64,000 nt of DNA from contig NZ_CP023747.1 in assembly GCF_008704995.1 (NCBI RefSeq), positions 2,444,501-2,508,500 of the forward strand, read 5' to 3'. Source of the stretch: Streptomyces nodosus. GTDB taxonomy: Bacteria; Actinomycetota; Actinomycetes; Streptomycetales; Streptomycetaceae. The number at the start of each line of letters is the position of its first letter. Position 1 is the first letter of the stretch. The notes beneath the pieces are model-generated. The model searched no databases and had not been told where the DNA came from. It saw nothing but the letters and a program-made list of their open reading frames with translations. Position numbers and translations under genes: made by a program. Below, piece by piece: positions 3,238 to 19,806 of this stretch.

Positions 3238-4977
3238 ATGACGCCCACAACGACCGACCAGCCCGCCCGGAGGCAGTCCGGCACGATCGTGCCGGTGCTC
3301 GCCTTCGCGGGGATCGTTGTCGCGGTGATGCAGACCCTGCTCGTCCCCGTCATCAAGGACCTGCCCGCGCTGCTGAGCACCACGCCCAGCAACGCCACCT
3401 GGGTCCTGACCTCCACCCTGCTCTCGGGTGCGGTCGCCACACCGATCATGGGCCGCCTCGGCGACCTCTACGGCAAGCGGCGGATGCTGCTCGCCAGCCT
3501 GGCCGTGATGGTGGCCGGCGCACTGATCAGCGGCTTCACCGCCGCCGTACTGCCGATGATCGTCGGACGTACGCTCCAGGGCTTCGCAATGGGCGCGATA
3601 CCGCTCGGCATCGGCCTGATGCGCGACATGCTGCCCCGCGAGCGGCTCGGCTCGGCGATGGCCCTGATGAGCTCGTCCATCGGCGTCGGCGGCGGACTCG
3701 CGCTGCCCGCCGCGGCCCTGATCGCCCAGCACGCCGACTGGCACGCCCTGTTCTTCTGCGCCGCCGGGCTCGGCGTCCTCTCGATCGTCCTCACCCTGGT
3801 AGCCGTGCCGGAGTCCCCGGCCCGCGCCCAGGGCTCCTTCGACCTGCCGGGTGCCCTCGGGCTGTCGGCCGGCCTGGTCCTGTTTCTGCTGCCGATCACC
3901 AAGGGCAGCGACTGGGGCTGGACGTCCGCCGGGACGCTCGGCCTGTTCGGGGCGTCCGCCGTGGTCCTGCTCCTGTGGGGCCTGATGGAACTGCGCCTCG
4001 CCGCCCCGCTGGTGGACCTGCGCACCACGGCCCGCCGCGAGGTGCTGCTCACCAACCTCGCCTCGATCATGGTCGGCGTCTCGTTCTACGTCGTCTCGCT
4101 GGTGCTGCCCCAGCTGCTCCAGCTGCCCGTCGCCACCGGCTACGGACTCGGCACCTCGATGGTCGTCGCGGGCCTGTGCGTGGCGCCGCTGGGCCTGACG
4201 ATGATGTTCACCGCGCCCGTCTACGCCCGGCTGTCCGTCAGGTACGGCCCCAAGGTCACCCTGATCATCGGGCTGCTGGTCATCGCGCTCGGCTACGCCG
4301 GCGGGCTCGGCCTGATGACGGCCGCCTGGCAGACCGTGGTCATCTCGGTGGTCCTGGGCGCGGGCATCGGCCTGGCCTACTCCTCGCTGCCCGCGCTGAT
4401 CGTCGGCGCGGTCCCGGCCTCGGAGACGGGCGCGGCCAACGGCCTCAACACCTTGATGCGTTCGATTGGTACGTCGGTCTCCAGCGCCGTCATCGGCATG
4501 GTGCTCACCGGCACCGCGCATCAGCAGGGCGGGCTCGCGGTCCCCAGCATGCAGGGATTCCGCGTCTCCTTCCTGATCGCCACGGCCGCGGCGGCGATCG
4601 GTCTGCTGCTGGCCCTCCTGCTGCCGAACCAGCGCCCCGCACAGCACACACAGCTGCGCGCGAGCAGCGAGGAGGAGGCCAATCTGCAGCGTGCCGAGGA
4701 GGTGCTGTGGGGCTTCAGGGGGCGGGTCCTGGGCGCGGACGGCACCCCGGTCGCCCGGGCCAGGGTGACACTGATCGACCGCCGGGGACGTCAGGCGGGC
4801 GCCACGCTCAGCGCGGCGGACGGCAGCTATGCGCTGACCGTTCCGGCCCAGGGCCCCTATGTCCTGGCCGCCACCGCCACGGGCCACGGCCCGCACGCCT
4901 CGTCCGCCACCCACACCGGCGACGACCACCCGGTCGACCTGGACCTCTCCCTCCCGGGCGAGTCGGTCTCGGCCTGA
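3238..4977 (+). CDS. MFS transporter with C-terminal carboxypeptidase-regulatory-like domain
   Basis: Drug-type major facilitator of about 579 residues. I chose the ATG at 3238 because it sits after a GGAG-containing site and directly before the hydrophobic N-terminus; an open frame back to 3046 is translated CT-rich leader. About 14 transmembrane segments span residues 20-470, with the DHA motif A GRLGDLYGKRRML and motif C-like glycine-rich stretches. After the last helix come about 95 residues that are not transporter-like: FRGRVLGADGTPVARARVTL, then DGSYALTVPAQGPYVL. These have the look of a CarboxypepD_reg/CNA-B-type beta-sandwich. The 240-base leader (3001-3237) is CT-rich with imperfect CGTACTTC/CTGACTTC repeats. 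Substrate unknown. Confidence 0.88.
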   Translation: MTPTTTDQPARRQSGTIVPVLAFAGIVVAVMQTLLVPVIKDLPALLSTTPSNATWVLTSTLLSGAVATPIMGRLGDLYGKRRMLLASLAVMVAGALISGFTAAVLPMIVGRTLQGFAMGAIPLGIGLMRDMLPRERLGSAMALMSSSIGVGGGLALPAAALIAQHADWHALFFCAAGLGVLSIVLTLVAVPESPARAQGSFDLPGALGLSAGLVLFLLPITKGSDWGWTSAGTLGLFGASAVVLLLWGLMELRLAAPLVDLRTTARREVLLTNLASIMVGVSFYVVSLVLPQLLQLPVATGYGLGTSMVVAGLCVAPLGLTMMFTAPVYARLSVRYGPKVTLIIGLLVIALGYAGGLGLMTAAWQTVVISVVLGAGIGLAYSSLPALIVGAVPASETGAANGLNTLMRSIGTSVSSAVIGMVLTGTAHQQGGLAVPSMQGFRVSFLIATAAAAIGLLLALLLPNQRPAQHTQLRASSEEEANLQRAEEVLWGFRGRVLGADGTPVARARVTLIDRRGRQAGATLSAADGSYALTVPAQGPYVLAATATGHGPHASSATHTGDDHPVDLDLSLPGESVSA

Positions 4978-5265
4978 CCACGTCCCGCAGGCCCACCACC
5001 GGCGGGGCCTGCGGGACCACCGCCGGTGTCTCCGCCCCACAGGCGGCCCCCCTCGCCCGCCCGGCCGACGGACACCCCGGCCCCCTCGGCACCGCTCGTC
5101 CCACAGACGCTCCCGTGCGGGCGGGGTCGGCCCCGCGCCCGCGGCCTTCGGCGGCCCTCCCCCGGCTGAGTCGCCGACCGGCCGGGTCCGCCGTACCCCG
5201 CGTCGCCCGCCCGGCAGGGGTACGGCAGCATGGGCCCGTCCGTTTGTACGACCGAGAGGAACCCC

Positions 5266-5967
5266 ATGGCCGCGGCGTCCTCGCCCGAGCTCCCGACCGC
5301 GCCCGGCCCGGGAGGACCCTCGTCCGGGGTCCTGGCCGCGTTCGAGGCCGCCAAGGGGTTCATGCCGCTCCACGAGGGGCTCGCGCTGCATGCGGCCGCC
5401 ACCGAGGCCGCGCGGCTGGGGCTGCCCCTGCTGGAGGTCGGCACCTACTGCGGGCGCTCCACGATCCTGCTCGCCGACGCGGCCCGCGCGGCCGGGGTGA
5501 CCGCGCTCACGGTCGACCACCACCGCGGCAGCGAGGAGCAGCAGCCGGGCTGGGAGTACCACGACCCGGAGACGGTCGACCCCGAGGTCGGCCTGATGGA
5601 CACCTTGCCGGCCTTCCGGCGCACCCTGCACAGGGCGGGGCTCGAGGACCATGTGGTCGCGCTCGTCGGCCGCTCCCCGCAGATCGCCCGGATCTGGAAC
5701 ACCCCGCTCGGCCTGGTGTTCATCGACGGCGGTCACACCGACGAGCACGCGAACGCGGACTACGAGGGCTGGGCCCCCCGGGTGGCCCACGGCGGGCTGC
5801 TGGTCATCCATGACGTCTTCCCCGCGCCGGAGGACGAGTTCACCGGCCAGGCCCCGTACCGCGTCTACCTCAGGGCCCTGGCGTCCGGCGCGTTCACGGA
5901 GGTCTCGGTGACCGACTCGCTGCGCGTCCTACGGCGAACGAGGACGGGGAGCGACCCGCGCCGTTAG
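5266..5967 (+). CDS. Class I SAM-dependent methyltransferase
   Basis: Predicted methyltransferase of 233 residues. The ATG at 5266 follows GAGAGGA at a good distance; an upstream in-frame ATG at 5230 lacks such a site. Motif I is LLEVGTYCGRSTILLADAA, the SAM-binding Rossmann strand and glycine loop, and the later LVFIDGGHTDEHANADYE is the acidic motif seen in the Methyltransf_24 family. This group acts on small molecules or sugars, but the substrate cannot be read here. The amidase gene begins only 10 bases after the stop, yet has its own possible leaderless start. Confidence 0.85.
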   Translation: MAAASSPELPTAPGPGGPSSGVLAAFEAAKGFMPLHEGLALHAAATEAARLGLPLLEVGTYCGRSTILLADAARAAGVTALTVDHHRGSEEQQPGWEYHDPETVDPEVGLMDTLPAFRRTLHRAGLEDHVVALVGRSPQIARIWNTPLGLVFIDGGHTDEHANADYEGWAPRVAHGGLLVIHDVFPAPEDEFTGQAPYRVYLRALASGAFTEVSVTDSLRVLRRTRTGSDPRR

Positions 5968-5977
5968 GGTCGCAGTC

Positions 5978-6955
5978 ATGTCGTACGTAGGTCCGGACTT
6001 CGATCCTCCCCGACCGCGCCGCTCCCGGCGGGGCCCGCTGACGCTCGCGATCGCCGGGCTGGTGCCGGCCGCGCTGGTGGGCTGGCTGGTGTACGAGGCG
6101 GTCGCCGACACCGGCGGCGGGCCGGCCGGCGCCGCGGCGCCCCCCACGAGTTCCCCGGTGTCCGGGTCCGCCACCGCCTCCCCCTCGGACGAGTCCGCCA
6201 CCGCCTTCCCCTCGGAGGACTCCAAGGGGAGGGCCGTGCCGCCCTCGCCGGCGTCCACCACCGGCCGGGCGGCGGGCTCCGGATCCCTCAAGGGCAAGGT
6301 CGTGGTCATCGACCCGGGGCACAACCCCAACAACTTCCGGCACACCGCCGAGATCAACCGCAAGGTGAACATCGGGACGAACCGCAAGGAATGCGACACC
6401 ACCGGCACCTCGACCAACGCCGGTTACGCCGAGGCACGGTTCACCCTGGACGTGGCGCGCCGGCTGCGCACGATCCTCCAGGACCAGGGCGCCACGGTGA
6501 AGTTCACCCAGGACGGCGACCGCCCCTGGGGTCCCTGCGTGGACGAGCGGGCACGGATCGGCAACGAGGCGCACGCGGACGCGGCGATCTCCATCCACGC
6601 GGACGGCGCGGCGGCCGGCGACCGCGGCTTCCATGTGATCCTTCCGGCCTCGGTGCACTCGGGTACCGCCGACACCCGCCCGATCGCCGCCTCCTCGCGC
6701 GCCCTCGGCGAGCGCATCGCGGGCAGCTTCGTCCGCGTCACCGGAAGCGCCCCGTCCAACTACCTCGGCAAGGGCACCGGTCTGGTCGTCCGCGACGATC
6801 TCGGCGGCCTCAATCTGTCGACGGTTCCCAAGGTGTTCATCGAGTGCGGCAACATGCGCGACAGCAAGGACGCGGCACTGCTGACCGACGGCGCATGGCG
6901 GCAGAAGGCGGCCCAGGGGATCTCTGAGGGAATCGTGAGTTTTCTGCACGGGTAG
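5978..6955 (+). CDS. N-acetylmuramoyl-L-alanine amidase (Amidase_3)
   Basis: Cell-wall hydrolase of 325 residues that cuts between muramic acid and the stem peptide. After a basic cytoplasmic stretch comes one hydrophobic segment (about residues 22-42, LTLAIAGLVPAALVGWLVYE), then a Ser/Pro/Ala-rich linker to about residue 105. The Amidase_3 domain holds the zinc ligands: VVIDPGHNP (His), a downstream Glu and ISIHADG (His), with the catalytic Glu in FIECGNMRD. It is therefore an envelope enzyme, membrane-tethered or cleaved. A TAGGGT hexamer at 5965-5970 lies seven bases before the ATG and no Shine-Dalgarno is seen, so the transcript may be leaderless. Confidence 0.9.
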   Translation: MSYVGPDFDPPRPRRSRRGPLTLAIAGLVPAALVGWLVYEAVADTGGGPAGAAAPPTSSPVSGSATASPSDESATAFPSEDSKGRAVPPSPASTTGRAAGSGSLKGKVVVIDPGHNPNNFRHTAEINRKVNIGTNRKECDTTGTSTNAGYAEARFTLDVARRLRTILQDQGATVKFTQDGDRPWGPCVDERARIGNEAHADAAISIHADGAAAGDRGFHVILPASVHSGTADTRPIAASSRALGERIAGSFVRVTGSAPSNYLGKGTGLVVRDDLGGLNLSTVPKVFIECGNMRDSKDAALLTDGAWRQKAAQGISEGIVSFLHG

Positions 6956-7112
6956 CGATCAACGCCCTCAACCCGGCGGACATCCCGCCCGGCCGGACGA
7001 TAGTGTCGTCCTACGATGAGGGGTCATCCCCGCGCTTCACACCGCGGCCCGAGGGCGAGATGGTGACAGCGACGCCTCCACCGACGACGAGACGACAGAC
7101 GAAGGACCCGAA

Positions 7113-7874
7113 GTGAATATCCGCTCCCTCACTCGAGGCGACGGCGTGGTGATCGGAGCAGCGGTACTGCTGTTCATCGCCTCGTTCCTCAGCCGCACCG
7201 GCTGCAGCGGCACCTACTGTGACTCCATCAGTCTTCCCAGCTCCTGGGACAGCCTCGGGCTCGGGCTCGGCACCTATATGGCGGGCGTGGCCGGTGGCGC
7301 GCTGGTGATTCTCTCCCGGCTGCTTCCCGCGCCCCGCAAGGTCCTGGGCCTCGACCTGGCGGTGGTCGGTGCGACGCTGACCGTCTCGGCCGCCTGGGTG
7401 CTGCTGTGGACGCTGATCGACGCGACCAACAGCGGTTCCGGTCTCATCCTCGGTTTTCTCGCCGCCCTGGTCCTGGCGGCCGCCGCGGTCGCCACCCCTC
7501 AGGTGCCGGCCCTGCAGGCCGCGCTCATCCCCGCTCCCAAGCCGGCCGCTCCCGGGCCCTACGGCGCGCAGCCGCAGGACGCCGCCTACGGCTACCCCGG
7601 CGCCCAGCAGTCCTTCTCCGGCCAGCCGCAGCAGGGGCAGCCGTACGGTGGGCAGCCGCAGCCGGTTCCGGGCGGGGAGTTCTCCCCCTTCTGGTTCGCG
7701 GTGCCGGCGCCGCGTCCGCTGTTCGCCGAGGACGGCTCCCCGGCCCCGGTCGCCGAGCTCGCGCCCGGCACCTGGTACCTGGCCGTCGAGCAGCGCGGCC
7801 CCGGCCTGGTGGCGCAGACGCAGGACGGCCGCCGCGGAGTGCTCCAGGACACCAGCGGCATCCAGCGCGGCTGA
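7113..7874 (+). CDS. Hypothetical membrane protein with Pro/Gln-rich linker
   Basis: Protein of 253 residues of unknown function. About four hydrophobic segments fill residues 8-135, in the pattern of actinobacterial DUF5336-like proteins. Residues 140-185 are low complexity, rich in Gly, Gln, Pro and Tyr (GQPQQGQPYGGQPQP). The last 65 residues form a small globular tail containing GTWYLAVEQRGPGLVAQ and ending in QDTSGIQRG. The tail could be a small beta domain, but I do not recognise it. The gene stands alone, with a bidirectional hairpin after its stop. Confidence 0.8.
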   Translation: MNIRSLTRGDGVVIGAAVLLFIASFLSRTGCSGTYCDSISLPSSWDSLGLGLGTYMAGVAGGALVILSRLLPAPRKVLGLDLAVVGATLTVSAAWVLLWTLIDATNSGSGLILGFLAALVLAAAAVATPQVPALQAALIPAPKPAAPGPYGAQPQDAAYGYPGAQQSFSGQPQQGQPYGGQPQPVPGGEFSPFWFAVPAPRPLFAEDGSPAPVAELAPGTWYLAVEQRGPGLVAQTQDGRRGVLQDTSGIQRG

Positions 7875-13103: not shown

Positions 13104-13170
13104 CTTCGGGCACTTACGGACCGTGATGCACTCCCGGAGGCGCGGGCGATTCTCGGGCCTTTTCGAGGGG

Positions 13171-13300
13171 GCCGGTAGAGTGACGGCGTCGTTCTCACAC
13201 TCGTACGGGGGGAAGCCGGTGTAAATCCGGCGCTGACCCGCAGCCGTGTGCCGCCTCCGGGCGGTGAGCCGGATCGCCTCGCACGGACGTGACCGGCTCG
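13171..13300 (+). promoter_or_regulatory. Cobalamin (B12) riboswitch
   Basis: The conserved core is present: GGGAAGCCGGTGTAAATCCG forms the GCCGG/CCGGC stem, then GCTGACCCGCAGC with the CCGTG element, and the B12-box-like GAGCCGGATCGCC. Order and spacing match adenosylcobalamin riboswitches of actinobacteria. It precedes the five-gene ECF operon starting at 13419 and should lower expression when cobalamin is plentiful. The expression platform lies within 13300-13418, where GC-rich pairing could hide the ribosome site near 13398-13405. Confidence 0.88.
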
Positions 13301-13418
13301 TGTCGTCGGCAGCCCGCCGACGGCCGGCACCGTCGAGGCTTACGGGGCCGGAGCCGCCCGGTTGCCTTCGCGTGCCCGTGCGCCCCGGCCCCCCGCAGGG
13401 AGAGGCAATCCGCCGACC

Positions 13419-14651
13419 ATGATCGTTCGCCGCGCCGCAGCGGTACTGGCCGCCATCACCGTGATCGGTGGCGCCACCGCCCCGGCCGCTCTGGCCACCG
13501 GCCCCTCCCCCTCCTCCTCGCCCGCACTGCCCTCGGGTCTGTACGGCACCGGCGACCCCACCTACGACGGGGTCTGGCGCCAGTCGCTGGCCTTCCTCGC
13601 CCAGCACTCGGTGGGGGTGAAGCCGGCCGCGAAGGCGGTGGACTGGCTCACCCGACAGCAGTGCGCCGACGGCGCGTTCGCCCCGTACCGCGCGAACCCG
13701 GCCGCCGCGTGCGACGCCAAGACGCCCGTCGACACCAACGGCACGGCGGCGGCCGTCCAGGCGCTGGCCGCGCTCGGCGGACAGGACGCCGTCACCGCGA
13801 AGGCGGTCACCTGGCTGAAGTCCGTGCAGAACGCGGACGGCGGCTGGGGCTATACGGCGGGTGGCGCGAGCGACGCCAACTCCACGTCCGTGGCGGTGGG
13901 AGCGCTGGCCGCGGTCGGTGAGAAGCCCGCCGAGGTGCGGTCCGAGGACGGCCACTCGCCGTACGACGCGCTGCTGAAGCTGTCGGTCCCCTGCGACCGG
14001 GACGGCGGCGGCGCGTTCGCCTACCAGCCCGACAAGAAGGGCGCCTTGGCGGCGAACGCCGACGCCACCGCGGCGGCCGTGGTGGGCGCGCTCGGCCGGG
14101 GGCTGGCCGGAAGCGCCTCGAAGCAGGCCGGGGCCGCCGGCTGCAAGACCGCCGACAGCCCCGAGCGGGCCGCACAGAACGGCGCCGCCTATCTCATCGA
14201 GAGCCTGGCGAAGGACCACCATCTGACGTCGGCGCTCCCCGGCGCCGATCCGCAGCCCGACTACGGCAACACGGCGGACGCGGTCGTCGCGCTCGCCACC
14301 GCGGGCCGGGGCGACAAGGCCGCCGACGCCATGGGCTGGCTCAAGAGCCACTCCGCCCGCTGGGCCGAACAGTCCGGGCCCGCCGCCTACGCCCAGCTGA
14401 TCCTCGCCGCGACCGCCACACAGTCCGACCCGCGTGACTTCGGCGGCCAGGACCTCGTGGCGAAGCTCAGCGCGACCGGCCCCGAGCCGGACTCCGGCAA
14501 GGCCGCCGCCTCCTCGTCCCCGGCCGCCTCGGAGCAGAAGGAGAAGTCCGACGGCGGAGTCTTCGGCGTCTGGTGGTTCGTCGCCGTCTGTCTGGTCGCC
14601 GGCATCGGTGTGGGCTTCCTGCTGTCCGGCCGCGCCAGGAAGCAGCAGTGA
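13419..14651 (+). CDS. Secreted, membrane-anchored prenyltransferase/squalene-oxidase-repeat protein
   Basis: Surface protein of 410 residues, SCO2321-like. The ATG at 13419 follows GGGAGAGG and starts a clear signal peptide (MIVRRAAAVLAAITVIGG, cleavage near ALA-TG). Residues 45-350 carry helical repeats of the alpha/alpha-toroid type: WLTRQQCADGAFAPY, WLKSVQNADGGWGYT and GNTADAVVALATAGRGD. A Ser/Ala-rich spacer then leads to a C-terminal transmembrane helix (about 382-402) and a basic RARKQQ end. It is first in a B12-riboswitch operon with an ECF transporter. The toroid fold is shared with the alpha domain of eukaryotic transcobalamin, so a cobalamin-capture role is an attractive inference, not proven. 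Confidence 0.87.
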   Translation: MIVRRAAAVLAAITVIGGATAPAALATGPSPSSSPALPSGLYGTGDPTYDGVWRQSLAFLAQHSVGVKPAAKAVDWLTRQQCADGAFAPYRANPAAACDAKTPVDTNGTAAAVQALAALGGQDAVTAKAVTWLKSVQNADGGWGYTAGGASDANSTSVAVGALAAVGEKPAEVRSEDGHSPYDALLKLSVPCDRDGGGAFAYQPDKKGALAANADATAAAVVGALGRGLAGSASKQAGAAGCKTADSPERAAQNGAAYLIESLAKDHHLTSALPGADPQPDYGNTADAVVALATAGRGDKAADAMGWLKSHSARWAEQSGPAAYAQLILAATATQSDPRDFGGQDLVAKLSATGPEPDSGKAAASSSPAASEQKEKSDGGVFGVWWFVAVCLVAGIGVGFLLSGRARKQQ

Positions 14652-15325
14652 TCCGCCGCGGTACGACCGTGCTGGCCCTGGTCCTTCCGGTTCTCCTGCT
14701 GACGCTGTTCGGCGGCGGACCGGCCCAGGCCGTCGGCTATCGCTACTGGTCCTTCTGGGAGCGGGACGGCGGCCGGTGGACATACGCCTCCCAGGGGCCC
14801 TCGACCGCCCGGCCGGCCGACGGGGACGTCCAGGGCTTCCGGTTCGCCGTCAGCGTGGACTCCCAGGACGCCACAAAGCCGCGCGGGACGGCGGACTTCG
14901 CGACCGTCTGCGCCACGACACCCGCCCGGGCCGGCGAGAAGAGGCTGGCACTGGTCCTCGACTTCGGCACCCCTGAGGACGCCCCCTCGGGCGAGACCCC
15001 GCCGGCCCCGCGCACCGCCTGCGCCCGCGTACCCGAGGACGCCACCACCGCGGACGCGCTGGCGGCGGTGGCCAAGCCGCTGCGCTACGACACCAACGCC
15101 CTGCTGTGCGCGATCGCCGGCTACCCGCAGAAGGGCTGCGGCGAACAGGTGGGAGGGTCGGAACAGACGGAACGGGCAGCACGGCCGGGGGCGTCGGACG
15201 GGACCGGAACCACGGCACAGGGCACCGCGCACCACGGCCCCTCGGTCGGCGTACTCGTGGCCGCCGCGGCGGTGGCGGTGCTCGGTGGGGCGGCGATATG
15301 GCAGGCGCGCCGCCGCAGGAGCTGA
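14648..15325 (+). CDS. SCO2322-family secreted/membrane-anchored protein
   Basis: Protein of 225 residues starting with GTG inside the GTGA overlap with the preceding stop. It has a signal peptide (cleavage near GPAQA-VG), a mature part beginning GYRYWSFWERDGGRWTYASQ, a central region with two cysteines, a Gly/Thr-rich spacer, and a C-terminal hydrophobic anchor (about residues 196-216) followed by ARRRRS. This is the architecture of the family named after S. coelicolor SCO2322; its function is unknown. Position between the toroid protein and the ECF T subunit suggests an extracytoplasmic accessory in corrinoid capture or hand-over. Confidence 0.87.
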   Translation: MIRRGTTVLALVLPVLLLTLFGGGPAQAVGYRYWSFWERDGGRWTYASQGPSTARPADGDVQGFRFAVSVDSQDATKPRGTADFATVCATTPARAGEKRLALVLDFGTPEDAPSGETPPAPRTACARVPEDATTADALAAVAKPLRYDTNALLCAIAGYPQKGCGEQVGGSEQTERAARPGASDGTGTTAQGTAHHGPSVGVLVAAAAVAVLGGAAIWQARRRRS

Positions 15326-15327
15326 CC

Positions 15328-16413
15328 ATGGTCTCTCGTCCCCGTGGCGGTCCTGCCCTGCACCCGGGCGCCTGGTGGCTGTGGTCCCTCGGCCTCGCCA
15401 CCGCCGCCACCCGCACCACCAACCCCCTGCTGCTCGCCCTGCTCGTCACGGTGTCCGGGTATGTCGTGGCGGTGTGCCGCACCGCCACGCCCTGGTCCCG
15501 CTCCTACTCCGCCTTCGTCAAGCTCGCCCTCGCGGTCCTGGTGATCCGGCTGGTGTTCGCCGTGGTCCTCGGCTCGCCGATCCCCGGCACCCACACCGTC
15601 CTCACCCTGCCCGAGATCCCGCTCCCCGACTGGGCGCAGGGCATTCGCCTCGGCGGCCGGGTCACCGCCGAGAGCCTGGTCTTCGCCCTGTACGACGGAC
15701 TGAGGCTGGCCACGCTGCTCGTCTGTGTCGGCGCCGCCAACTCCCTGGCGAACCCGGCCCGGCTCCTCAAGTCCCTCCCGGGCGCGCTGTACGAGGTGGG
15801 CGTCGCGGTCGTCGTCGCGCTCACCTTCGCTCCGCATCTGGTCGCCGACGTACGGAGGCTGCGCGCGGCACGCCGACTGCGGGGTCGGCCCGACCGGGGT
15901 CTGCGCGGTCTGCTCCAGGTCGGACTGCCGGTCCTGGAGGGCGCGTTGGAACGTTCGGTGGCCCTGGCCGCCGCGATGGACGCACGGGGCTTCGGCCGCA
16001 CCGCCGAGGTTCCGCCCGCCGTGCGCCGTACCACCGGCGCCCTCACCCTGGGCGGTCTGCTCGGTGTCTGCGCGGGCACCTATGGACTGCTCACCGCGGA
16101 GGGCGGCATCTACGGTCTGCCCGTCCTGCTGGCCGGGCTGGCCGCCGCGCTGGCCGGGCTCCGGCTCGGCGGCCGGCGCTCGCCGCGCACCCGCTACCGC
16201 CCGGACGTCTGGGGCGCACGGGCGTGGCTGGTAGCCGGTTCCGGGATCGCGGCGGCGGCGCTGATGGCCCTCTCCGGCGCCCACGACCCCACCGCGCTGC
16301 ATCCCGGGGTCGTCCCCCTGACCGCTCCCGAACTGCCCCTGCTCCCCGCCGCGGCGGTCCTGCTCGGCCTGCTGCCCGCGTTCGCCGCCCCCGCCCCCAA
16401 GGAGCCCGCGTGA
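15328..16413 (+). CDS. ECF transporter T component (CbiQ-like)
   Basis: Energy-coupling transmembrane protein of 361 residues. The ATG at 15328 follows AGGAG. It has six or more transmembrane segments, and the coupling helix carries the two Ala-Arg-Gly-like motifs expected for T components: LRAARRLRG and, more clearly, AMDARGFGR. It should bind the fused ATPase encoded next and the S component at the end of the operon. The family supplies energy coupling for vitamin or cobalt/nickel uptake; here the upstream B12 riboswitch points to cobalamin or a precursor. The C-terminal half (about 230-361) has extra hydrophobic segments. Confidence 0.88.
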   Translation: MVSRPRGGPALHPGAWWLWSLGLATAATRTTNPLLLALLVTVSGYVVAVCRTATPWSRSYSAFVKLALAVLVIRLVFAVVLGSPIPGTHTVLTLPEIPLPDWAQGIRLGGRVTAESLVFALYDGLRLATLLVCVGAANSLANPARLLKSLPGALYEVGVAVVVALTFAPHLVADVRRLRAARRLRGRPDRGLRGLLQVGLPVLEGALERSVALAAAMDARGFGRTAEVPPAVRRTTGALTLGGLLGVCAGTYGLLTAEGGIYGLPVLLAGLAAALAGLRLGGRRSPRTRYRPDVWGARAWLVAGSGIAAAALMALSGAHDPTALHPGVVPLTAPELPLLPAAAVLLGLLPAFAAPAPKEPA

Positions 16414-18092
16414 TCCGCTTCGAGAACGTCTCGGTGACGTACGAGGGTGCCGGTGAACCGGCTGTCCGGGACGTCGACTTCGAGGTCCCGGAGGGTGAAC
16501 TGGTGCTGCTGGTGGGCCCGTCCGGGGTCGGCAAGTCGAGTGTGCTCGGCGCGGTGAGCGGTCTGGTCCCGCACTTCACCGGCGGCACCCTGCGGGGCCG
16601 GGTCACCGTGGCCGGACGCGACACCCGTACCCACAAGCCCCGCGAACTCGCGGATGTGGTGGGCACGGTGGGCCAGGACCCGCTGTCCCATTTCGTGACC
16701 GACACCGTGGAGGACGAACTCGCCTACGGCATGGAGTCCCTGGGGCTGGCGCCGGAGGTGATGCGGCGGCGGGTCGAGGAGACCCTGGACCTGCTCGGGC
16801 TGGCCGATCTCCGTGAGCGCCCGATCGCCGCCCTCTCCGGCGGTCAGCGGCAGCGCGTCGCCATCGGCTCGGTGCTCACCCCGCATCCCAAGGTCCTCGT
16901 CCTGGACGAGCCGACCTCCGCGCTCGACCCGCCGGCGGCCGAGGAGGTCCTCGCCGTTCTCCAGCGGCTCGTCCACGATCTCGGTACGACCGTGCTGCTC
17001 GCCGAACACCGGCTGGAGCGGGTCGTCCACTACGCCGACCAGATCGTGCTGCTCCCGGCCCCGGGCGCCCGCCCGGTGCTGGGCACCCCGGCGGAGGTGA
17101 TGGCGGTCTCCCCGGTGTGCCCGCCGGTGGTGGACCTCGGCCGACTGGCCGGCTGGTCGCCCCTGCCGCTGACGGTCCGGGACGCCCGCCGACGCGCCGG
17201 CGCCCTGCGCGAACGGCTCGCGGACGCCGCCCCCGTGGACGACCGGACTCCGGGCCCGCAGGCGCCTGGCCCGCGCCCGCGTCCCGCCACCGCTCGCCGC
17301 TTTCTGCGCCGTCGTCCCGTCCCGGACTCCCCCGCGCCTCACCCCCCGGCGGCCGTCGCCTCCCTCGCCGTCCACCGCGGGCAGGTGGAGGCCCTGCGCC
17401 GGGTCGACCTCACCGTCACCGCGGGCGAGACCGTCGCCCTGATGGGACGCAACGGCGCCGGGAAGTCCACCCTGCTGGCGGCGCTCGTCGGGCTGGTGGA
17501 ACCGGCCCGGGGCTCCGTACGGGTCGGCGGGGCGGTGCCGCACCGTACCGCCCCGCGCGAGCTGGTGCGGCGGGTGGGCCTGGTGCCCCAGGAACCACGG
17601 GACCTTCTGTACGCGGACACCGTGGCCGCCGAGTGCGCGGCGGCGGACCTGGACGCGGGCGCCGACCCCGGCAGCTGCCGGGCCCTGGTGTCCGAACTGC
17701 TGCCGGGCGTCGCGGACGAGACCCATCCGAGGGATCTGTCGGAGGGGCAGCGGCTGGCGCTGGCCCTCGCCGTGGTGCTCACCGCGCGGCCCGAGCTGCT
17801 GCTCCTGGACGAGCCGACGCGCGGTCTGGACTATGCGGCCAAGGCCCGTCTGGTCACCGTGCTGCGCGGACTCGCCGCCGAGGGGCACGCCATCGTGCTG
17901 GCCACCCATGATGTGGAACTGGCCGCCGAACTCGCCCACCGGGTGGTGATCCTGGCCGACGGCGAGGTCGTCGCGGACGGTCCGGCCGCCGATGTGGTCG
18001 TCGCCTCCCCGTCGTTCGCGCCCCAGGTGACGAAGGTGCTGGCGCCGCAGCGGTGGCTCACCGTGGCCCAGGTGCGAAAGGCGCTGTCGTGA
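16410..18092 (+). CDS. ECF transporter fused A/A' ATPase (CbiO-CbiO)
   Basis: Double ABC ATPase of 560 residues; the GTG start overlaps the T-component stop. The first cassette has Walker A GPSGVGKSS (about residue 36), signature LSGGQRQR and Walker B VLVLDEPTSALD. A Pro/Arg-rich linker (about 255-310) leads to the second cassette: Walker A GRNGAGKST, signature LSEGQRLALA, Walker B LLLLDEPTRGLD and switch His in ATHD. In the second signature SGGQ is SEGQ, as often seen in A' halves. A single chain thus supplies the ATPase dimer of an ECF importer. It shares the B12 riboswitch of the operon. Confidence 0.92.
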   Translation: MIRFENVSVTYEGAGEPAVRDVDFEVPEGELVLLVGPSGVGKSSVLGAVSGLVPHFTGGTLRGRVTVAGRDTRTHKPRELADVVGTVGQDPLSHFVTDTVEDELAYGMESLGLAPEVMRRRVEETLDLLGLADLRERPIAALSGGQRQRVAIGSVLTPHPKVLVLDEPTSALDPPAAEEVLAVLQRLVHDLGTTVLLAEHRLERVVHYADQIVLLPAPGARPVLGTPAEVMAVSPVCPPVVDLGRLAGWSPLPLTVRDARRRAGALRERLADAAPVDDRTPGPQAPGPRPRPATARRFLRRRPVPDSPAPHPPAAVASLAVHRGQVEALRRVDLTVTAGETVALMGRNGAGKSTLLAALVGLVEPARGSVRVGGAVPHRTAPRELVRRVGLVPQEPRDLLYADTVAAECAAADLDAGADPGSCRALVSELLPGVADETHPRDLSEGQRLALALAVVLTARPELLLLDEPTRGLDYAAKARLVTVLRGLAAEGHAIVLATHDVELAAELAHRVVILADGEVVADGPAADVVVASPSFAPQVTKVLAPQRWLTVAQVRKALS

Positions 18093-18970
18093 CCGCCGCT
18101 CCTCGCCCGGAAGCGGCGGCGCCGTCCCCGCCCCACCCGGACCGGGACTCCCGGGTCCGCCCCGGGTCCCCGCCCGTCCGGCTCGGGCCCCGCTCGGTCG
18201 CCTCCCTCGTCCTGGTGAGCGCCGTCGGCGCCGCGGGCTTCACCTGGCCGCTCTTCGCCGACCCCGGCTCCCAGGTCGGCACCCACGCCCAGGACGCCCC
18301 CTGGCTCTTCACCGGGCTGCTGGTGCTGCTGGTCGCGGTCGTGGCGGCGACCATCTCCGAGTCGGGACTCGGTCCGAAGGCCGTGGCCATGCTCGGAGTG
18401 CTCGCCGCGACCGGGGCCGCCCTGCGACCGATCGGCGCCGGGACCGCCGGCATCGAACCGATGTTCTTTCTGATGGTGCTGAGCGGGCGGGTGCTCGGGC
18501 CGGGATTCGGGTTCGTCCTCGGCAATGTGACGATGTTCGCCTCCGCGCTGCTGACCGGCGGGGTCGGCCCCTGGCTGCCGTTCCAGATGCTGGCGATGGG
18601 CTGGTTCACACTGGGTGCGGGACTGCTGCCGGGCCCCGGGCGGTGGTTGCGGGGACGGGCCGAGGTCGCGTTGCTCGCCGCGTACGGCCTGGTGGCGGCC
18701 TTCGCCTATGGCACGGTCATGAACCTGGCGGGCTGGCCCTTCATGGGCGCACTGGCCTCGAACATCGCCTTCGATCCGCACGCCGGGCTCGCCGCCAACC
18801 TCACCCGCTTTCTCGCCTACTGCCTGGCCACCTCCCTGGGCTGGGACCTGGGCCGGGCCGTCGTCACGGTGGTGCTCACCTTCTTCCTGGGCCCGGCGGT
18901 GCTCAAGGCGCTGCGCCGCGCGACCCGGCGCGCGGCCTTCGAGGCCCCGGTCGGCTTCGAACAGGCCTAG
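18089..18970 (+). CDS. ECF transporter S component (substrate-binding membrane protein)
   Basis: Integral membrane protein of 293 residues; the GTG start overlaps the ATPase stop. A Pro-rich cytoplasmic stretch (1-40) precedes six hydrophobic segments. Motifs such as RPIGAGTAGIEPMFFLMVLS and GFGFVLGNVTMFASAL are like the S components predicted for cobalamin-regulated actinobacterial ECF systems. Substrate specificity sits in this subunit. The riboswitch makes cobalamin, cobinamide or another B12 precursor the best guess; sequence alone does not settle it. It is the last of the five coupled genes. Confidence 0.85.
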   Translation: MTAAPRPEAAAPSPPHPDRDSRVRPGSPPVRLGPRSVASLVLVSAVGAAGFTWPLFADPGSQVGTHAQDAPWLFTGLLVLLVAVVAATISESGLGPKAVAMLGVLAATGAALRPIGAGTAGIEPMFFLMVLSGRVLGPGFGFVLGNVTMFASALLTGGVGPWLPFQMLAMGWFTLGAGLLPGPGRWLRGRAEVALLAAYGLVAAFAYGTVMNLAGWPFMGALASNIAFDPHAGLAANLTRFLAYCLATSLGWDLGRAVVTVVLTFFLGPAVLKALRRATRRAAFEAPVGFEQA

Positions 18971-19389
18971 TTCTGCGGCGGTTCCCCTGTGGTCCGGGTC
19001 ACCTCGCCGACCCTCCGGTGCGGTGTGGGTCACACCGGTCCACCGCGTTCCGTGGCGCCGGAGTCGACCGTCCGTCATCCCCGCCGTGACGGGCCCCACG
19101 TGACCGGGCTCACCTACTAACCGGACTCGTAGGCGGGCGGAGGGTGCACCCCCGCCGATCAGGCCCCCGACCTGGCCTTTGAGAACCGGGTCACACAGAC
19201 CCGTGGGGCCGAATGCGACCACAACTAGTAAAAGAGGGCATTGCGGACACCTCGCCGGCCTGTTTCTCTGGATGACGTCGCCGGGCGCCGACGAGCCCTC
19301 ATGGGCCGCGGCGCCGCTGCATGCCCCCGCCGCTCCTCCGCGGTTCCGGTGTGCCCGCGACCCCATGCCCCCGAACGAAAAGGTGTTCT
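18971..19389 (+). other. 419-base leader region before the transglycosylase gene
   Basis: No convincing gene. It holds a CGGGTC-ACACA-GACCCG hairpin at 19187-19203 and a looser GC hairpin around 19132-19156 that may end the ECF operon. An AT-richer patch (ACTAGTAAAAGA, near 19225) may belong to the promoter or leader of the lytic enzyme. I looked for the c-di-AMP riboswitch common before Streptomyces wall hydrolases and did not find its conserved core. Confidence 0.5.
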
Positions 19390-19806
19390 GTGTCCGTCTC
19401 CGTCATCCGCCGCATCGCCACCCCGAAGAAGGCCGTCGCCACCGCCGCCCTGGCCGCCGCCACGACCGGCATGCTGTTCGCCTCGGCTCCCGCCCAGGCG
19501 GCCTCCTCGGGATCGGACTCCTCCGCACAGGCGATCGCCCATCAGATGATCCCGGACTCCGCGCAGTACGAGGCGTTCAACAAGATCGTCTCCCATGAGA
19601 GCGGCTGGAACGCGCACGCCACCAACTCCTCCTCCGGCGCCTACGGCCTGGTCCAGGCGCTGCCCGCGTCCAAGATGTCGTCCGCCGGTTCCGACTGGAA
19701 GAGCAACCCGGCCACCCAGATCAAGTGGGGCCTGGACTACATGAACTCCCGCTACGGCAGCCCCGCCGCGGCGTGGAACTTCTGGTCGACCCACCACTGG
19801 TACTGA
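19390..19806 (+). CDS. Secreted lytic transglycosylase (SLT-type)
   Basis: Small peptidoglycan-cleaving enzyme of 138 residues. The GTG at 19390 follows AAAGGTG. A signal peptide of about 45 residues (MSVSVIRRIATPKKAVATAA...) ends near APAQA-AS. The mature domain is the short goose-lysozyme-like SLT fold with the catalytic Glu in IVSHESGWNAHATNSSSGAY, then GLVQALPASKM and IKWGLDYMNSRYG, ending in WNFWSTHHWY. This matches the common actinobacterial single-domain transglycosylase. A near-perfect terminator follows the stop. Confidence 0.9.
   Translation: MSVSVIRRIATPKKAVATAALAAATTGMLFASAPAQAASSGSDSSAQAIAHQMIPDSAQYEAFNKIVSHESGWNAHATNSSSGAYGLVQALPASKMSSAGSDWKSNPATQIKWGLDYMNSRYGSPAAAWNFWSTHHWY

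Follow-up and report, generated by a model that had tools for sequence, protein, structure and literature searches.

A cobalamin-riboswitch operon of Streptomyces nodosus that probably scavenges corrinoids through two exported, circularly permuted partner proteins and an ECF importer

How might a bacterium catch vitamin B12 at its surface before an importer takes it up? This question is raised by a five-gene operon of Streptomyces nodosus, which lies in the 64,000-nucleotide stretch of DNA analysed here (the window; positions 2,444,501 to 2,508,500 of contig NZ_CP023747.1) within a 7.77 Mb single-contig genome. Behind a cobalamin riboswitch, the operon encodes two exported proteins followed by the T, A/A' and S proteins of an energy-coupling factor (ECF) importer. 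An initial annotation of the window drew a parallel to eukaryotic transcobalamin from the alpha/alpha toroid encoded by gene 1 and left gene 2 without a role. We find that the toroid and the proposed beta domain of gene 2 are both circularly permuted relative to homologs elsewhere in the phylum, a point missed by that annotation, and that the two domain orders go together in every decidable locus. Taken as a whole, we consider it probable that the operon scavenges corrinoids by means of a permuted toroid and beta catcher that feeds the ECF importer. The operon is composed as follows (window coordinates, with the evidence for each assignment in brackets).

13165..13305, plus strand: cobalamin riboswitch aptamer region, with its RF00174 core match at 13210-13278 (covariance score, leader conservation, covariation)
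13419..14651, plus strand: gene 1, exported, C-terminally anchored alpha/alpha toroid protein of the SCO2321 family (NF053823 score, fold)
14648..15325, plus strand: gene 2, exported, C-terminally anchored protein of the SCO2322 family, with a proposed circularly permuted transcobalamin-type beta domain (NF040672 score, permutation)
15328..16413, plus strand: gene 3, EcfT of the CbiQ family (PF02361)
16410..18092, plus strand: gene 4, fused EcfA-EcfA' ATPase (PF00005 twice, TIGR01166)
18089..18970, plus strand: gene 5, ECF S component with a putative substrate (PF12822 below cut-off; conserved operon position)

Three of the four gene junctions overlap by 4 bases and a 2-base gap separates genes 2 and 3, so the earlier description of five overlapping genes was nearly right. 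Gene 1 belongs to the NCBIfam family NF053823 (SCO2321; 595.6 bits, cut-off 300) and gene 2 to NF040672 (SCO2322; 235.1 bits, cut-off 85); the names of these models state neither a function nor a permutation. Both proteins carry an N-terminal and a C-terminal hydrophobic stretch, in agreement with their annotation as exported and C-terminally anchored, and gene 2 falls just below the cut-off of the GPS-CTERM sorting model (27.4 bits, cut-off 28). The ECF importer proposed for genes 3 to 5 is likewise borne out by family matches. Gene 3 matches CbiQ (PF02361, 32.6 bits, cut-off 25), and gene 4 holds two ABC_tran stretches (PF00005) and matches TIGR01166 cbiO (255.5 bits, cut-off 211.8), with the ECF ATPase models TIGR04520 and TIGR04521 below their cut-offs. 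Gene 5 matches ECF_trnsprt (PF12822) at 27.7 bits, below the cut-off of 30.7, which its paralog at a second locus of the same genome exceeds with 35.2 bits. Genes 3 to 5 together thus supply EcfT, a pair of EcfA domains and an S component, the make-up of an ECF transporter.

To compare the operon within the genus, we used the loci of the best 80 of 495 gene 2 relatives in named genomes, all of them Streptomyces. The complete five-gene order is kept in 68 of these 80 loci. Eleven of the other 12 are shorter than 10 kb; the twelfth, the 14.7-kb locus L059, holds genes 1 and 2, with EcfT, EcfA and EcfS undetected. Of 37 same-genus genomes sampled, the window's genome included, 36 contain a SCO2321-family match above the cut-off; the odd one out, G408, gave a best E of 1.4e-10. 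Another same-genus genome, G701, had no SCO2322 match at E 1e-4. Only one paper in our literature search, PMC9237094, was found to mention SCO2321; it describes the protein as hypothetical and makes use of its signal sequence.

The riboswitch at the head of the operon is genuine, as the initial annotation had it, despite its low score. The RF00174 match at 13210-13278 (plus strand) reaches 30.9 bits (E 4.2e-6, 551 bases searched) and is the weakest of 10 such matches in the genome. It misses the gathering score of 31.5 by 0.6 bits, so an ordinary scan passes it over, and a scan of the whole window at the gathering threshold did not report it. Across 80 aligned leaders, the window's among them, a common motif, GGGGgAAGCCGGTG...TCC GGCGCTGaCCC (capitals, at least 90% conserved), is present. 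Of 79 usable Streptomyces leaders, 27 contain a strict core pattern that is met nowhere else in 1,058,252 bases, both strands, of the 80 loci. For the aptamers, 15 of the 79 leaders were set aside for lack of an anchor motif, duplication or odd length, and from 32 diverse aptamers, eight that were misplaced or overlong (L009, L010, L013, L018, L023, L031, L069 and L081) were removed by hand. The resulting alignment of 25 aptamers predicts 37 pairs, of which 7 show two-sided, pair-keeping changes; shuffled alignments average 3.2 (3 of 500 reach 7) and slid partners give 0 to 5. We accept the element because the leader is conserved and its pairs covary.

The key to gene 2 came from its distant relatives. 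When the SCO2322 model was run over 396 genomes of the phylum, 60 matched at E 0.01 and 13 scored over the cut-off. In five genomes (G134, G284, G322, G366 and G390) the model hit a single frame as two swapped pieces, with model positions about 61-141 coming before about 3-76. We refer to the two halves as A and B, which in gene 2 stand in the order B-A.

14735..14857, plus strand: beta half B, residues about 30-70, YWSFW...GDVQGFRF (permutation comparison)
14933..15151, plus strand: beta half A, residues about 96-168, LVLDFG...GYPQKGC (permutation comparison)

Aligned by hhalign with 15 unrotated (A-B) members, the native Streptomyces profile scored 77 over 44 columns; once rotated to start at residue 76-96, it scored 136.5 over 110-111 columns (E 5e-24). 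The unrotated set comprised 13 sequences from other genomes and two frames of the second locus in the window's genome (L093); the 13 are those that yielded a motif sequence among the 17 loci L111-L127 (none from L117, L120, L125 and L127). The curated SCO2322 model matches all 15. At twelve columns, three of them cysteines, one residue is shared by no fewer than 33 of the 35 rotated and 13 of the 15 unrotated sequences. As a control, 20 rotated sequences from outside Streptomyces fit the native order best (302 versus at most 250 for four rotations). The comparison of profiles therefore firmly argues for a circular permutation between the two bacterial beta sets.

What this domain is follows less directly. 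The unrotated beta set aligns in the same order with DUF4430, a transcobalamin-type domain, with a probability of 73 (E 3e-5, 99 columns), the DUF4430 set being drawn from 28 of 30 loci (L151 and L154 yielded no frame by motif). A search of the Protein Data Bank (PDB) with a joint profile of the two sets found 3u7z (E 0.004) and transcobalamin-2 (E 0.11 and 1.6 to 2.1). Gene 2 itself matches no Pfam family at E 1, DUF4430 (PF14478) included; its profile link to DUF4430 is an indirect one. Its predicted secondary structure, taken from a poor model, runs from three strands to two strands and a helix, as expected of a rotated beta-grasp. Judging from these profiles, gene 2 may be assigned with moderate confidence as a transcobalamin-type beta domain with swapped halves and as the second half of a binder; its link to transcobalamin proper we grade as weak to moderate.

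The toroid of gene 1 shows the same kind of exchange. Its N-terminal piece in unrotated relatives, P, here follows the C-terminal one, Q.

13524..14123, plus strand: toroid piece Q, residues about 36-235, C-terminal in unrotated relatives (profile comparison)
14151..14483, plus strand: toroid piece P, residues about 245-355, N-terminal in unrotated relatives (profile comparison)

In loci with an unrotated beta gene, the SCO2321 profile finds toroid positions about 245-350 (P) ahead of about 36-235 (Q). Against 11 unrotated toroids (L093_6510 was excluded), the native profile scored 254 over 191 columns and a profile rotated to start near residue 242 scored 353 over 294 columns (E 3e-49). With plain blastp, swapped pairs appeared in five of the unrotated toroids and one piece or none in the others. 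Ten rotated-lineage toroids from outside Streptomyces fit the native profile best (427 versus at most 375 for five rotations). A tie between the anchors and the permutation was considered and rejected, since C-terminal hydrophobic stretches are strong in some toroids and missing in others, rotated and unrotated alike.

The two domain orders co-segregate. In all 80 Streptomyces loci a B-A beta gene accompanies a Q-P toroid; as these loci were retrieved via gene 2, the beta order there was given by the search and the toroid order was not. Outside Streptomyces, the toroid is Q-P in 10 of 10 loci in which it adjoins a B-A beta gene (L160, L173, L175, L177, L180, L181, L184, L185, L186 and L188), and P precedes Q in 8 of 8 decidable loci with an A-B beta gene (L093, L165, L166, L168, L170, L171, L190 and L191). 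No mixed locus, with one domain rotated and the other not, was found among these 80, 10 and 8 loci. There are weak spots: in L165 and L166 the P piece scores no more than 5 bits, in L171 a surplus Q piece of 9 bits stands first, and L093 and L168 carry tandem toroids. The matching orders are not independent events: 2 changes suffice to account for the domain order on a tree of 34 EcfA sequences, compared with a mean of 9.5 for shuffled labels (0 of 500 as low). L169, in which the order was left undecided for the count above, was labelled unrotated by hand in this tree.

Tandem copies are the kind of intermediate through which circular permutations are thought to arise. In L169, one long frame (4454-7282) encodes first a toroid piece and then the beta domain in tandem (A-B-A-B); it may represent an intermediate that arose by duplication on the way to the permutation. 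L093 holds a tandem toroid of the order P-QP-Q-Q. We looked for a single duplication behind both permutations and found no simple path. As the tandem copies of beta (L169) and toroid (L093) stand apart, two separate events seem likelier than one; the direction of the permutation is presumed.

The second locus in the window's genome, L093 (7.108-7.126 Mb), contains the unrotated counterpart of the operon, so that a single strain offers both forms for comparison. Its ECF locus (L093 6510-15829, i.e., G000:C1:7.1145-7.1238 Mb) encodes, behind a riboswitch of its own, a toroid protein whose C-terminal domain is DUF4430-like (18.2 bits, below the cut-off of 23.8). A second riboswitch heads a divergent set of genes, which encode a protein of beta domain plus tandem toroid, an unrotated beta protein on its own, EcfT, EcfA and EcfS. 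Directly after this second operon, a 91.8-bit cobalamin riboswitch (L093 15869-16042) stands ahead of an open frame that resembles a CoA-acylating aldehyde dehydrogenase. In the window itself, beyond the operon, a short protein at 19321-19806 resembles an exported lytic transglycosylase-type domain.

We next turn to the distribution of the system. In the class Actinomycetes, the SCO2322 model matched 153 of 394 genomes at E 1e-4 and scored over the cut-off in 135. A further sample of 20 loci from 19 families was drawn, 18 from matches over the cut-off and two from partial ones, a choice that favors the rotated order; 18 are rotated and two unrotated. EcfT, EcfA and EcfS are adjacent in 17 of them and a toroid in 11. 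The annotation had proposed that the five-gene order be checked for conservation alongside B12 riboswitches. The order holds in Streptomyces to the extent given above, and a B12-class riboswitch (RF00174, RF01482 or RF01689) at or above the gathering score lies ahead of the operon in 14 of these 20 loci; the same is true of 5 of 12 earlier loci (L160, L164, L166, L168 and L170). Two rotated toroid and beta gene pairs, L180 6521-8649 and L188 5607-7750, lie behind an AdoCbl-II and an AdoCbl riboswitch, respectively, and have no adjacent ECF genes in the stretch fetched. Together, the riboswitches and the gene context support corrinoid uptake.

The toroid, however, is not part of the system throughout, which counts against the reading of the initial annotation. 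Among 10 class genomes that lack an adjacent toroid, nine have no SCO2321-like match in any part of the genome at E 0.01 and the tenth has one of 18 bits (other toroid families were not searched). All nine keep a B-A beta gene together with EcfT, EcfA and EcfS, and one of them, G521, is a genome of 1.3 Mb. By this pattern, the core that is conserved would seem to consist of the importer and the beta protein. In two genomes outside the class, which have no toroid at the locus, a toroid in P-Q order is found elsewhere.

From these data we propose the following working of the operon. It would scavenge a corrinoid, either B12 itself or a closely related precursor, for example cobinamide, and B12 would shut it off via the riboswitch. 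The predicted beta-grasp domain of gene 2 would sit at the outer face of the membrane, held by its C-terminal anchor, and the toroid of gene 1 would pack on it, so that the corrinoid may be held between two chains as it is between the two domains of transcobalamin. The S component would then receive the corrinoid from both proteins, and ATP would drive its import through the ECF module. Where the toroid is lacking, beta protein and ECF module may work alone. Relative to homologous loci in the phylum, both domains are permuted, with P-Q set against Q-P in the toroid and A-B against B-A in the beta protein, and the two orders go hand in hand.

Several observations weigh against this proposal. 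The rotated Streptomyces beta profile reaches DUF4430 weakly (probability 12 to 13); a wider rotated set attains 60 to 61 over half A only, and rotation brings no gain. The unrotated beta profile alone found no chain in the PDB, and in the list obtained with the joint profile unrelated oxalate decarboxylases and plantacyanin appear at E 0.57 to 0.86, between the transcobalamin-2 matches. The structure model of gene 2 is poor (mean predicted local distance difference test score, pLDDT, of 63.8), and a search of the PDB with it gave nothing useful (best E 2.1), a null that says nothing on the fold given such a model. It is because of these weak profile values, the silence of the unrotated profile on its own and the weak reach of the rotated one that we keep the identity of gene 2 at moderate confidence. 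Gene 5 could not be linked to solved S components by a single-sequence search or a 17-row profile search, which returned two chance PDB matches. In the EcfA tree, a single change of order suffices in none of 200 bootstrap replicates, although its starred branches still allow one origin. The genome encodes CobN (1171 bits) and thus probably makes B12 itself, so that scavenging would serve it when B12 is scarce. A cobalamin riboswitch of 46.1 bits lies upstream of cobN (G000:C1:1936994-1943329).

The fold of gene 1 adds a further point against the proposal. The annotated toroid fold is confirmed by a confident model (block means of pLDDT 86 to 98, residues 51-350) that matches solved alpha/alpha toroids by both Foldseek and VIA. 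Its nearest solved folds are terpene cyclases of the squalene-hopene and drimenyl diphosphate types; the best VIA row has Z 23.3 and a root mean square deviation of 3.1 with 253 aligned. Human transcobalamin (2bb5), with which the annotation had suggested a comparison, ranks 31st by Foldseek (E 1.9e-3, TM-score 0.40) and is absent from all 36 PDB sequence matches of the gene 1 toroid. Searched against the PDB, the unrotated toroid profile yielded cyclases, AprG and complement fragments and no transcobalamin among 60 of 64 matches listed; VIA-align likewise had none among the 50 rows listed, an absence that carries no meaning. With terpene cyclases nearer and transcobalamin at rank 31, the toroid alone does not point to transcobalamin, and its tie ends at the common fold. 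The proposed parallel therefore retains some resemblance, through a B12-regulated ECF importer with two exported partners, and its stronger link shifts from the toroid to gene 2.

This likeness to cyclases suggests that gene 1 might be an extracellular terpene cyclase or prenyltransferase-type enzyme. We give this very little credence. DXDD is the catalytic motif of squalene-hopene-type cyclases; it is not found in gene 1 and occurs in only 4 of 31 family members and not at one position (121 once, 357-380 in three), so that we rejected an enzymatic role, and the protein is exported and encoded within a B12-riboswitch transport operon. Equally hard to credit is that the swapped orders are artefacts of toroid repeats or of chance beta alignment. 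Toroids are made of repeats, and local matches may slip register, as the 5-bit P pieces remind us; yet a single rotation gives the highest scores against one lineage and the native order does so against the other, blastp finds the swapped pairs unaided in five toroids, and the co-segregation is without exception.

More room must be left for a system in which the beta protein is the sole substrate-handling partner, be it as a lid or as a factor in docking or assembly, with the toroid as an accessory that has a different task, e.g. in the cell wall. The genomes without a SCO2321-like toroid speak for it, as does the adjacency of a toroid in just 11 of 20 sampled loci. We nevertheless hold it unlikely, as an adjacent toroid gene precedes the beta gene and the permutation states of the two agree in every decidable case. 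Quite improbable, in our judgment, is a cargo of cobalt ions or of a non-corrinoid B12 precursor (lower-ligand base or nucleoside). The CbiQ family, to which EcfT belongs, is named for cobalt transport; cobalt ECF systems, however, are not known to include a pair of large exported partners, which counts against such a cargo. Cobalt transporters, too, stand under B12 riboswitches, according to the part of PMC3766115 that deals with them. On the other side, acI freshwater actinobacteria cannot synthesize B12 and have, downstream of B12 riboswitches, an ECF module that the authors, in the section concerned, read as putative cobalamin transporters (PMC5301498); this module presumably belongs to the same family as the present importer.

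Corrinoid scavenging by a toroid and beta pair, which we prefer, also has a precedent. A bacterial parallel to transcobalamin is not new, since Burroughs et al. (2007; PMC1796856), in the passages on these operons, described bacterial toroid and transcobalamin-type beta-grasp (SLBB) proteins encoded with CbiO/CbiQ and proposed B12 scavenging. Like the present system, theirs combine exported toroid and beta-domain proteins with a CbiO/CbiQ transporter and are predicted to scavenge B12 or its precursors. Those passages place them mainly in low-GC Gram-positives and planctomycetes, less often in euryarchaea, and usually in organisms without B12 synthesis. In contrast, the operon studied here belongs to Actinobacteria, encodes separate anchored chains with both domains permuted, has a B12 riboswitch ahead and lies in a genome with CobN. 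The animal proteins transcobalamin, intrinsic factor and haptocorrin consist of a toroid and a beta-grasp domain, and the same source describes B12 as sandwiched between the two, as we propose for the present pair. In the animal family both domains share one chain with the usual beta strand order, whereas here two genes are involved and the halves of the putative beta-grasp are swapped. Strictly, gene 1 and gene 2 are thus no members of the transcobalamin family, given their separate chains and rotated beta order, but by analogy they may well work similarly.

Other known systems share single traits. ECF-CbrT of Lactobacillus delbrueckii (PMC5997447) is likewise an ECF importer, with CbrT as the S component for cobalamin and cobinamide; it uses a shared ECF module, the portion of the paper on its make-up describes no exported partner, and the searches with gene 5 found no sequence match to it. 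BtuH of gut Bacteroidetes (PMC8941943) is a B12-binding protein whose description there, on which rather than on sequence our comparison is based, names no toroid or beta-grasp. A permuted beta-grasp has a precedent in the UFD domain of eukaryotic E1, in another lineage and, as the relevant part of PMC1949818 has it, with strand S1 moved to the C-terminus. Among the matches listed in a search of openly licensed PubMed Central papers, nothing concerned this permutation or the function of the SCO2321 and SCO2322 families. Judged by that search, three points are new: the assignment of SCO2322 to a beta half in rotated form, the finding that the toroid is rotated as well, and the joint occurrence of the two.

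For the class as a whole, we offer a bolder proposal tentatively, at slightly less than even chances: that in much of the Actinomycetes both halves of the binder were permuted together, kept as separate chains, several of them anchored, and placed a corrinoid over an ECF importer, and that, in lineages lacking the toroid, the rotated beta protein came to be the sole essential partner. In our reading, the surface capture of B12 ahead of an ECF importer is little understood, and in the papers that we consulted we met no test of the transcobalamin-like catcher predicted in 2007. The operon gives this prediction a tractable genus and, in SCO2322, a candidate second half, and it makes rotated and unrotated systems available for comparison, even in one genome. 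The genomes that keep beta protein and importer without a SCO2321-like toroid bear on the sharing of B12 in communities. If our reading is true, the operon would represent a rare concerted circular permutation in two partner domains, an interesting problem and an unusual, testable case of protein evolution.

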